NCBI GenBank assembly: GCA_902791235.1
Contig: CADAUV010000002.1
Coordinates: 31,243 to 95,242, forward strand
Direction: 5' to 3'
DNA: 64,000 nucleotides
From: Oscillospiraceae bacterium
Lineage (GTDB): Bacteria; Bacillota; Clostridia; Oscillospirales; Acutalibacteraceae
Each line of letters opens with the position of its first letter. Position 1 is the first letter of the stretch. The translations under genes were made by a program, and so were the position numbers. A model generated the notes under the pieces. It worked only from the letters and a program-made list of their open reading frames with translations, was not told where the DNA came from and made no database searches. This document shows, piece after piece, positions 38,478 through 48,059 of the stretch.

Positions 38478-38529
38478 GCGTCCATTAAAAGACGGAATAC
38501 CCCGCAAATTAATGAACGCCTTTGCCCAT
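38478..38529 (-). promoter_or_regulatory. glnA leader: A1/G4 hexaloop hairpin overlapping a terminator
   Basis: On the minus strand ATGGGC, loop AAAGGC, GTTCAT form a six-pair hairpin (38529-38512) with two G-U pairs. The 3' arm is also the start of the terminator stem GCGTTCATTAA (38519-38509) with TTAATGGACGC (38488-38478), followed by ATTTTTATT. The two structures exclude each other. The loop has the A1 and G4 bases known from ANTAR targets. The leader sits directly before the glnA ribosome site. Confidence 0.78.
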
Positions 38530-38535
38530 ATATAA

Positions 38536-38564
38536 ATAATATAATAAGGAGAGCGGGATGTCAA
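38536..38564 (-). promoter_or_regulatory. glnA promoter
   Basis: On the minus strand TTGACA (38564-38559), 17 bases, TATTAT (38541-38536). The predicted start is about 38529, the first base of the hexaloop hairpin. Confidence 0.8.
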
Positions 38565-38585
38565 GAAAAAAGTTAAAGAAAACAC

Positions 38586-38614
38586 TTGACAAACCAAAGC
38601 CGAGGGTGTAAGAT
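38586..38614 (+). promoter_or_regulatory. gdhA promoter
   Basis: TTGACA (38586-38591), 17 bases, TAAGAT (38609-38614), with TG just before the -10. The -35 boxes of gdhA and glnA are back to back, 21 bases apart. Confidence 0.8.
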
Positions 38615-38623
38615 TTTATGAGT

Positions 38624-38740
38624 AAAGGCAATGGAGTCTTTGAGTTAACGCTCAAGGGCTCTTTTTCTTTAATTAAATATGAAGGCAACGGCGTCTTTCA
38701 GTGTATGAATACCCATACGCTGAAGGGCGCTTCTGCCTTT
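38624..38740 (+). promoter_or_regulatory. gdhA leader: two hexaloop/terminator modules
   Basis: Module 1: AAAGGC, loop AATGGA, GTCTTT (38624-38641). Its 3' arm belongs to the terminator GAGTCTTTGAG (38634-38644) with CTCAAGGGCTC (38651-38661), then TTTTTCTTT. Module 2: GAAGGC, loop AACGGC, GTCTTTC (38681-38699). The competing 17-bp stem starts GCGTCTTTCAG (38691) and pairs to 38730, extended by AAGGCA/TGCCTT and followed by TTTT. The loops start 57 bases apart. Both loops have A1 and G4, as in EutV-type ANTAR targets. Confidence 0.78.
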
Positions 38741-38766
38741 TAAGGCACAGACTAAGGAGGATATTT

Positions 38767-45851: not shown

Positions 45852-45863
45852 TAAGAACCTGAC

Positions 45864-45899
45864 AAAAGGCAGCAGTTCACACTGAACCGCTGCCTTTTT
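45864..45899. terminator. Bidirectional terminator between the LtrA-like and GH31 genes
   Basis: AAAAGGCAGC plus GTTCA pair with TGAAC plus GCTGCCTTTTT, with a single A:C mismatch. T runs are on both sides. Confidence 0.85.
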
Positions 45900-45903
45900 G
45901 CTG

Positions 45904-47853
45904 TCAAAATGCTTCAAGCACCTTTGCGCCTTTTCTGACAAAGGCGATGAATTCATCGGGCTTCGCGCTTATTTCATAACTGCCCTGAGTGAAGGTCCCG
46001 CCTGTTTTTGTAAGCACCCATTCGCCCTTGGGGAGATATACGGATTTAACCGTCTGTCCCATATTGACAATCGGCGCAAAAAGGATATCGTCGCCGAACA
46101 TATACTGCTCGCCGAGGGTGTAGCACTTCTCGTCCTCGGAAAAATCGAAAAACATGGGACGCATTACGGGCGCGCCTGTTTCTGACGCGATTTCCATATG
46201 CTTTTCTATATACGGTCTGAGCCTTTCGCGAAGCATTACAAGCCCCTTGAGCACCTTATAATTATCCTCGCCGAAGCTCCAAAGCTCATTCGGGTCGCCC
46301 GAAGGCTCCTTGACATCACGCTTTTTCTCACCGTGCCTGTTACGGTTACCGTGAAGCCTCATCACAGGCGAGAACACGCCGTACTGAAACCATCTTAAAA
46401 TAAGCTCACGAAATTCACTGCTCTGCGTATCGCCGCCATAAAAGCCGCCGATATCGGTGTTCCACCACGGTATGCCGCAAAGCGACATATTAAGCCCTGC
46501 CTTCACCTGCTGTGAAAGGCTTTCAAAGCTTGAAGGGATATCGCCGCTCCAGACAAGCGCGCCGAATTTCTGACTGCCGAGATAAGCACAGCGGATGAGG
46601 GTTACAGGCTCATCGTCGCCAAGCTGCTTAAAGCCGTCGTATGCCATCTGAGCATAATAATAGGGATAGAGAAGCGCAACCTCGTCGCCCCTGCCGATAC
46701 TGAAAATAAGATTGTCAAACTGCTCGGGATGCACCTCGGGCTCAGCCTCGTCAAACCAGAGCGCGTCGACGCCGTTATCAAGATAATTTTCCCTAAGCTT
46801 TGAGAAAACGAACTTTCTTGCAGCAGGATTTGTAACATCAATTTCCGCCTGAGGTCCATAGAAGCTGAACACCCTGTCAAGTCCGCGCGCGGTACGGATA
46901 AGCATATTATTATCGCGCATAAAGTTATAATTCTCGCTGCCTCCGTTAATCGTGGGCCACATTGAAACCACAAGGCGCACGCCCATTTTATGAAGCTCGT
47001 CGGTCATCGCTTTAACATCGGGGAAATATTCGGAGTCAAATTTATAATCTCCCTGCTCGCTCCAGTGAAAATAATCGCAGATAATGGCGCTGAGCGGTAT
47101 ACCCTCCGCCTTATATCTTCTTGCGACCTCAAGCAAATCCTCCTGCGTTTCATATCTCAGTCTGCTCTGCCAGAAGCCCGTCGCCCAGTGGGGCATAACG
47201 GGAGCGTGCCCTGTTAAGTCGGCAAGCTCCGAGCAGACCTGCCTCGGCGTACCGCCGATTACGACATAATCAAGCCTTTTCGTTGCGCTCACGCTCCAGC
47301 GCGTGCGGTTATTAGAAAGCTCGACGGTTCCGACTGCGGGATTATTCCAAATAAAGCCGTAACCGAGCGAGGAATAAATATAAGGGATTGTGCATTTTGC
47401 GTTGACATGGCGGAGGTCGAATGAACAACCCTTCAGGTCAAAGCAGCCGCTCGCCTCGTGGCCGAGCCCGTAAAGATGCTCGCCCTCCCTGCCCTCAAAG
47501 GTTACGCGCGCACTCCATAGTCCGCTGCCCTTGTTTTCGTAACAACGAAATCCGCTGTTAAAGGTCATCTCGGGCTTCTCCTCAAGAATGACACTGCCGT
47601 CCTTATAAAAGGTTGTCTTTCCGTTTTGCTCAAGCTGAACGGTAAGGCATCCGACAGTCATTTTAACATTATTGCCGTTGTCCTCAATTATACAGTCCGC
47701 CGCCTTTGGCATAAGAGTGTAATTAAGTTCAAGCTCGCTGCAGTCGGGGAAAGCCTCAAAACGAATTGCATTATCGCCGCAGGGCGTAATACGCACAAGC
47801 TCCCCAACCCTTGTAAAGAGTATTTTATTTTCGCTGATTTCAGCACCGTACAT
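45904..47853 (-). CDS. Glycoside hydrolase family 31 (alpha-glucosidase/alpha-xylosidase-like)
   Basis: 649 residues from the ATG at 47853 (TGGTGA upstream). The N-terminal beta-sandwich (about 1-210) leads into a TIM barrel: PHWATGFWQSRLRYETQEDLLEVARRY, ICDYFHWSEQGDY, the nucleophile Asp in VDALWFDEAEPEVH, and the acid/base Asp in LVWSGDIPSSF, then CGIPWWNTDIGGF. There is no signal peptide. WFDEAEPE-type GH31 proteins act on alpha-linked glucose or xylose; the precise substrate is unknown. A single-gene unit. Confidence 0.92.
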   Translation of the reverse strand: MYGAEISENKILFTRVGELVRITPCGDNAIRFEAFPDCSELELNYTLMPKAADCIIEDNGNNVKMTVGCLTVQLEQNGKTTFYKDGSVILEEKPEMTFNSGFRCYENKGSGLWSARVTFEGREGEHLYGLGHEASGCFDLKGCSFDLRHVNAKCTIPYIYSSLGYGFIWNNPAVGTVELSNNRTRWSVSATKRLDYVVIGGTPRQVCSELADLTGHAPVMPHWATGFWQSRLRYETQEDLLEVARRYKAEGIPLSAIICDYFHWSEQGDYKFDSEYFPDVKAMTDELHKMGVRLVVSMWPTINGGSENYNFMRDNNMLIRTARGLDRVFSFYGPQAEIDVTNPAARKFVFSKLRENYLDNGVDALWFDEAEPEVHPEQFDNLIFSIGRGDEVALLYPYYYAQMAYDGFKQLGDDEPVTLIRCAYLGSQKFGALVWSGDIPSSFESLSQQVKAGLNMSLCGIPWWNTDIGGFYGGDTQSSEFRELILRWFQYGVFSPVMRLHGNRNRHGEKKRDVKEPSGDPNELWSFGEDNYKVLKGLVMLRERLRPYIEKHMEIASETGAPVMRPMFFDFSEDEKCYTLGEQYMFGDDILFAPIVNMGQTVKSVYLPKGEWVLTKTGGTFTQGSYEISAKPDEFIAFVRKGAKVLEAF

Positions 47854-47920
47854 AATAATCACCAAGCAAAGTATAGCATAGGCAGATATAAAAATAAAGT
47901 TTTTATTTTCGGATTTTCTA

Positions 47921-47949
47921 TTGACAAATCAATCTCTAAGGTGTAACCT
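47921..47949 (+). promoter_or_regulatory. asnA promoter
   Basis: TTGACA (47921-47926), 17 bases, TAACCT (47944-47949), with GGTG just before the weak -10, as in the gdhA promoter. The predicted start is about 47956. Confidence 0.65.
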
Positions 47950-47957
47950 GTTCTTGT

Positions 47958-48059
47958 AAGGCAAAGGGGTCTTTGAGATTATCTCGAAGACCCTTTTTAA
48001 TTTGAATACCGTAAAAGACAAAGGAGTCTTTGGGATTTACTCTCAAAGACTCCTTTTTT
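47958..48059 (+). promoter_or_regulatory. asnA leader: two hexaloop/terminator modules
   Basis: Module 1: AAGGC, loop AAAGGG, GTCTT (47958-47973), competing with terminator GGGTCTTTGAG (47967-47977) and CTCGAAGACCC (47983-47993), then TTTTT. Module 2: AAAGAC, loop AAAGGA, GTCTTT (48014-48031), a perfect six-pair stem. It competes with terminator AAAGGAGTCTTTG (48020-48032) and CAAAGACTCCTTT (48044-48056), then more T. Loops start 57 bases apart, the same spacing as in gdhA. The asnA ribosome site follows at once. Confidence 0.8.

Follow-up and report, generated by a model that had tools for sequence, protein, structure and literature searches.

A candidate one-hexaloop form of ANTAR antitermination in front of nitrogen genes of an Oscillospiraceae bacterium and its relatives

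Leader RNAs controlled by the ANTAR antiterminators EutV/EutW of Enterococcus faecalis carry hexaloops with A at position 1 and G at position 4 (A1/G4), the 3′ arm of which also belongs to an intrinsic terminator, and antitermination by EutV requires both hexaloops (PMC3369931; PMC8934654; these and the other sources are cited from their accessible parts). ANTAR control of nitrogen genes through hexaloops and terminators is also in print (PMC3369931; PMC8934654; PMC8164766). NitR of Clostridium saccharobutylicum, an ANTAR protein, reportedly acts by antitermination and induces the glutamine synthetase/glutamate synthase (GS/GOGAT) genes under nitrogen limitation (PMC6316151, citing Stutz 2007); ANTAR nitrogen regulons have been described in Desulfotomaculum and Pelobacter (Ramesh 2012; PMC3369931), and an ANTAR gene of Clostridium thermocellum, Clo1313_2030, has been proposed to be NitR-like (PMC4676874). 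Here, we analysed a stretch of 64,000 nucleotides from an Oscillospiraceae bacterium (GCA_902791235.1, contig CADAUV010000002.1, positions 31,243 to 95,242 of the forward strand; hereafter, the window), in which six copies of an RNA module with an A1/G4 hexaloop precede glnA1, gdhA, pyrG and asnA. Each module is probably a transcription attenuator with one hexaloop, opened by the ANTAR protein encoded next to glnA1.

The locus resembles the EutV/EutW system in its ANTAR protein, its A1/G4 hexaloops and a 3′ arm common to an intrinsic terminator; unlike that system, it has one hexaloop at the predicted transcript start and has lost the receiver aspartate, and no kinase was recognised among the genes beside the ANTAR gene (PMC3369931; PMC8934654). 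As with NitR, an ANTAR protein appears to act on nitrogen genes by antitermination (PMC6316151), but here gdhA, pyrG, asnA and glnN are also likely targets, and the hairpin targeted by NitR is not described in the accessible part of that source. The Desulfotomaculum and Pelobacter regulons are similar in having several operons per genome, with glutamate synthase and other nitrogen genes; they differ in that they were found with a model requiring two hairpins (PMC3369931), which should miss modules with one hexaloop. Clo1313_2030 likewise lies with glutamine synthetase, in a glutamate synthase-glutamine synthetase cluster, for which the accessible text describes no leader elements (PMC4676874).

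On the minus strand of the window lie glnA1 (37240..38466), which encodes a type I glutamine synthetase-like protein with an altered E flap, and, after it, the ANTAR regulator gene (36624..37226); on the plus strand lie gdhA (38767..40101, NADP-type glutamate dehydrogenase), pyrG (40333..41964, CTP synthase), an aminotransferase gene and, further on, asnA (48077..49075, aspartate-ammonia ligase). The NitR gene of C. saccharobutylicum presumably lies beside glnA too. The six loops, all of the form A-A-N-G-G-N, were found where the original prediction had located them: AAAGGC at 38523-38518 in the glnA1 module (38478..38529, minus strand; 6-bp stem, terminator about 38519-38478), AATGGA at 38630-38635 in the first gdhA module (38623..38668; 7-bp stem, terminator stem 38633-38662), AACGGC at 38687-38692 in the second (38680..38737; terminator stem 38690-38731), AAAGGC at 40124-40129 in the module between gdhA and pyrG (40117..40156; 3-bp stem, terminator stem 40125-40152), AAAGGG at 47963-47968 in the first asnA module (47956..48000; terminator hairpin about 47963-47997) and AAAGGA at 48020-48025 in the second (48013..48059; terminator hairpin about 48020-48056), the last five all on the plus strand. 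As had also been predicted, the 3′ arm of each module runs, in folds, into an intrinsic terminator hairpin (minimum free energy −19.3 to −39.3 kcal/mol, z −3.8 to −9.6); the description of this arm as GTC, usually GTCTTT, fails for the glnA1 copy, where it is GTTC. Folding recovers all six hairpins, including those missed by a simple terminator scan, which lists the two gdhA hairpins and the pyrG hairpin, gives that of glnA1 only in pieces and misses those of asnA. The U-tract of the pyrG module is broken.

The 12-base pattern GRCAANGGNGTY matches the genome 38 times and its reversed control 30 times, and is by itself weak evidence against chance. Of the 38 matches, 34 were inspected (the exceptions being two on contig C68 and those on C69 and C76), and a strong hairpin (≤ −16.8 kcal/mol; the next best has −13.6) follows nine of them. 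These nine comprise the six window modules and a tandem of three ahead of a second, canonical glnA on contig C63 (locus L033), after which an ammonium-transporter-like frame begins (the name amtB comes from reading the partial frame). The genome total is nine modules in five leaders. A scan of the window against Rfam gave no family at the gathering threshold. A covariance model of the kind that the original prediction had called for, still finds the pyrG copy when trained without it (24.8 bits, E 0.003).

Scans of related genomes with such models found modules in family as well as order relatives. Model R1 was trained on this genome alone and models the terminator, not the hexaloop stem; R2 was built largely from matches in ANTAR-positive genomes; of the two, R1 is the fairer test of co-occurrence. 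From 115 R1 matches, 81 were kept after reverse-strand echoes of palindromic terminators and repeated loci had been left out, and removal of seven doubtful loci (L046, L047, L113, L117, L119, L121 and L122) gave a set of 74 modules from 29 sources, the window and fetched relatives. Rejected R1 matches include a terminator without a hexaloop in the bacterium's own genome (C1:97559), a match in genome G064, the loop of which lacks G4, and one in G038 that sits after a carbamoyl-phosphate-synthase-like gene; the latter two were judged false.

A module combines a stem that ranges from 3 bp to 9 bp or more with a six-base loop, which has A at position 1 (72/74) and position 2 (74/74), any base at position 3, G at position 4 (74/74) and position 5 (71/74) and C at position 6 (56/74); the two exceptions at position 1 (L111 and L042) have G. 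Positions 1 and 4 are kept in the leaders of relatives, as foreseen; the register search behind these counts itself admitted only G at position 4 and purines at position 1, and no module failed it. The overlap between hairpin and terminator is kept as well, with at least three of the 3′ arm's first five bases paired in the terminator fold of all 74 modules. When glnA1 leaders were searched with no rule on loop sequence, 13 of 38 had a hairpin with a six-base loop overlapping a terminator; there were 16 such hairpins, and the loop was A1/G4 in 13 of them. The stem class AAGGC/GTCTT precedes gdhA, glnN, asnA and pyrG, and TGAGC/GTTCA precedes glnA1 and gltB; modules of Treponema and Oribacterium have stems of other classes. 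Stem covariation was assessed on 63 hand-chosen segments, 54 of them distinct, of which five of the 63 (Treponema and Oribacterium) came from searches requiring the hexaloop pattern or stem: over five pairs, 95.9% of the cells are paired, and 41 cells are doubly changed; shuffles give 10.7 (standard deviation, SD, 2.5) and slid controls 0-10.

The modules could be 5′ stabilisers or plain terminators that do no switching, with a loop conserved through its pairing in the terminator, and indeed 68 of the 74 terminator folds have G4 paired, and part of the 5′ arm enters an outer helix in four of the six window folds. However, loop position 6, which lies in the modelled terminator stem, varies, whereas positions 1, 2 and 4 hardly do; moreover, the two arms of the hairpin covary, and the modules track the ANTAR protein across the order (see below), which renders this explanation highly improbable.

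The original prediction erred in calling a single A1/G4 hexaloop the known recognition element of ANTAR antiterminators: the published element is a dual hexaloop, of which the A1/G4 loop on a short stem and the 3′ arm overlapping an intrinsic terminator are present here, and the second loop, with its short linker, is missing. Upstream of the hairpin, 41 of 55 first modules have a sigma-70-like promoter with 9 or more of 12 matches, and in 33 of the 55 the −10 box ends 7-11 nucleotides before the five-bp stem; letter-shuffled upstream DNA has such a promoter in 10% and one at that distance in 1%, and second or third modules have them in 2/19 and 1/19. The usual spacing from the −10 box to the transcription start is 6-7 nucleotides, so that the stem would lie within about 5 nucleotides of the predicted 5′ end. 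In the window, putative promoters precede glnA1 (38536..38564, minus strand, TTGACA-17-TATTAT, the −10 box ending 7 nucleotides before the 5-bp stem), gdhA (38586..38614, plus strand, TTGACA-17-TAAGAT) and asnA (47921..47949, plus strand, TTGACA-17-TAACCT). No promoter-like site was found just upstream of the pyrG module and, as there, several of the promoter-less first modules lie after gdhA inside an operon.

One module was detected in 38 of the 55 leaders, two in 15 and three in 2. With 17 leaders carrying two or three modules, 50-90 nucleotides apart, and with ANTAR leaders described as dual in the accessible literature, a classical dual-hexaloop element has to be considered, in which the recruiting would fall to a P1 hexaloop further upstream or to the preceding module of the tandem. 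We regard this as very unlikely: an A1/G4 hexaloop within 45 nucleotides upstream occurs at 2 of the 55 first modules against 6.4 (SD 2.2) in shuffled DNA, in a search run without a positive control on a dual leader; the promoter leaves at most about 5 nucleotides before the stem in 33 of the 55; and beside the single-module majority, the tandem modules are variably spaced, with a whole terminator in between.

The candidate regulator has a C-terminal ANTAR domain (PF03861, 52.1 bits; cut-off 27.3) and a receiver-like N-terminus, and its AlphaFold model (predicted local distance difference test score, pLDDT, 89.5) has a EutV-like fold, with Rv1626, EutV, EutV-RNA and AmiR as the best PDB matches. 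The receiver phospho-aspartate position is occupied by Asn and, among 41 aligned ANTAR proteins, by Asn in 34, Tyr in 3, Asp in 3 and His in 1, the aspartate being missing in 38 of the 41. A phosphorylatable receiver aspartate is not required in every ANTAR protein, AmiR being an example. At the RNA contact positions, which were placed by alignment to EutV, E160, K149 and M172 match in 41/41 and Y164 is His in 41/41, contacts around G4 being largely kept, and K143 is basic in 40/41; R175 and R177 are mostly not kept (see below). The genome has a second ANTAR gene, on contig C3 (L001:1480-2001), which adjoins a dapF-like frame (named dapF by reading).

Co-occurrence was examined in 100 family genomes, with the glnA-linked ANTAR called at E ≤ 1e-15, and in 197 order genomes. 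In the family, R1 matched 21 of 52 genomes with this ANTAR and 3 of 48 without it (own genome included); in G083, one of the latter three, a partial ANTAR runs off the contig end. The 21 include G035, G008 and G078, the R1 matches of which are the doubtful loci L119, L121 and L122; after removal of these three genomes, G038 and G064, the counts are 18/52 and 1/48 (p 2e-5). At E 1e-5, all 17 family genomes matched by R2 are ANTAR-positive. In the order, R2 at 1e-4 matched 44 of 98 genomes with the ANTAR and 4 of 99 without it (p = 3e-12, relatedness ignored), or 39/88 and 3/95 outside the bacterium's own family, and modules were found in the genomes of 36 of 44 close ANTAR orthologs as against 8 of 54 remoter ones. 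The same-genus genome G021 has no glnA-linked ANTAR, and there the gdhA promoter (TTGACA-17-TATAAT) is present and the module absent. Altogether, R2 places modules in 48 of the 197 order genomes, about a quarter, and several of the module-bearing relatives come from rumen samples. The tracking of this ANTAR by the modules across the order speaks for the proposal, made in the original prediction, of one nitrogen antitermination regulon run by the ANTAR protein encoded after glnA.

Another RNA-binding factor, or the second ANTAR, might read the modules. The second protein also has an ANTAR domain, three genomes with an R2 match (G171, G180 and G233) have no ANTAR match at all, and weak R2 matches occur in G009 and G051, which have only the second-type ANTAR. 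However, of the 11 family genomes that carry the second type, G000 alone has the glnA-linked type too, and R1 matched just G000 and G038, the latter apparently falsely; G021 has the second type and neither an R1 nor an R2 match. We consider such a reader very unlikely.

The targets in relatives, listed from fetched loci rather than from a full census, are glnA1, glnA2, glnN (type III glutamine synthetase), gdhA, gltB, pyrG and asnA; some matched rows had no gene recognised at first, and part of these were later named by Pfam, the others being among the rejected matches or left without an assignment. In G073 (L145), two modules head a run of dapF, pyrG, an aminotransferase gene, a gene of no recognised function and asnA, genes that stand apart in the window. 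At L144, L147 and L148, a module of the glnA1 class precedes a split glutamate synthase operon (GATase_2 and Glu_synthase, with ferredoxin at L144 and with Pyr_redox and GXGXG at L148), followed by glnA1 and the ANTAR gene. Modules with the loop AAAGAG precede pyrG, glnA1 and gltB in Treponema (L045 and L048), and in Oribacterium a module precedes pyrG; the like architecture of the spirochaete modules suggests transfer or great age.

The claim that all four window targets assimilate ammonium or consume glutamine becomes doubtful for glnA1. In GlnA1, the E-flap motif GYEAP is NNKAP, with a one-residue deletion nearby. At the position of the flap glutamate (Glu304 of B. subtilis), 33 of 39 ANTAR-linked relatives, as distant as Treponema, have Lys and 3 have Glu, so that this glutamate is lost in 36 of the 39; Arg62, the holder of this glutamate, is kept in none of the 38 relatives with a residue at that column. 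Glu304 and Arg62 have a role in catalysis and glutamine feedback of glutamine synthetase (PMC9249791, accessible part). Since the receiver aspartate is missing in nearly all of the aligned ANTAR proteins, the signal may be a protein contact; these features hint at a signal other than phosphorylation, which may come from the GlnA1 neighbour. It is possible, though we hold it doubtful, that GlnA1, devoid of flap glutamate and feedback arginine, is a nitrogen sensor that switches the aspartate-less ANTAR and so opens the one-hexaloop attenuators; if true, this would mean that a glutamine synthetase exerts its control on RNA and not on DNA. The rival reading of GlnA1 is that of an enzyme for other amines (an amine ligase) instead of a pseudo-enzyme sensor.

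The modules, promoter-like sites, hairpin/terminator overlap, stem covariation, ANTAR co-occurrence and target set can be read from the DNA itself; from them, we infer protein binding, the direction of control and the signal as follows. At glnA1, gdhA and asnA, RNA polymerase would start a few nucleotides before the hairpin, and the weak A1/G4 hairpin (median −3.3 kcal/mol for the 64 of 74 modules with a full 5-bp stem) would form first; left alone, it would be displaced by the much stronger terminator (median −24.3 kcal/mol, 74 modules), and transcription would stop after some tens of nucleotides. A weak hairpin facing a strong terminator suggests termination as the default, so that bound protein would be needed for readthrough. 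When active, the glnA-linked ANTAR would bind the hexaloop and keep its 3′ arm out of the terminator, allowing readthrough into glnA1, gdhA, pyrG, asnA and the second glnA. Formed from the first bases of the transcript, the hairpin may have time for capture before the 3′ arm of the terminator is made, and two or three modules in series would give a tighter gate.

Several observations weigh against this interpretation. EutV needs both of its hexaloops, and one might therefore not suffice. Among the EutV contacts, R175 is Arg in 6/41 and R177 in 0/41 of the aligned ANTAR proteins, and N173 is Asp in 27/41. Doubly changed positions occur in 3 of the 5 stem pairs, not above shuffles (2.9), and with G4 so often paired in the terminator folds, part of its conservation may stem from the terminator. 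No qualifying hairpin was found in 25 of the 38 glnA1 leaders, in some of which glnA1 lies inside a gltB operon. At E 0.01, R2 matched 28/52 family genomes with the ANTAR and 7/48 without it, and at 1e-4 it had no match in 8 of the 44 genomes with close orthologs and in 46 of the 54 with remoter ones. Four order genomes have a match but no ortholog; the three named above lack an ANTAR domain, and the fourth, G122, has one below threshold. Finally, the genomes are related, so that the p values are too small. On balance, we regard the core interpretation, nitrogen antitermination via the ANTAR protein, as well supported.

ANTAR regulation of nitrogen genes is not itself new; what appears to be new is the one-hexaloop form of ANTAR antitermination, and a search of the open literature, with most subscription papers outside its reach, turned up no account of antitermination by one hexaloop at the start of a transcript. 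To our knowledge, a one-hexaloop element would be the smallest ANTAR element. Walshe et al. 2022, who reduced the ANTAR binding site to a single hexaloop, argued that two are needed in succession for antitermination and, in the accessible text, left the role of single hexaloops open (PMC8934654). The modules of the order form a large collection from nature in which a single loop apparently suffices, making that question directly testable. For the Oscillospiraceae bacterium, the finding points to a likely nitrogen regulator shared by many of its relatives, and it may explain how glutamate dehydrogenase, glutamine synthetase, glutamate synthase and the synthesis of CTP and asparagine are tuned jointly.

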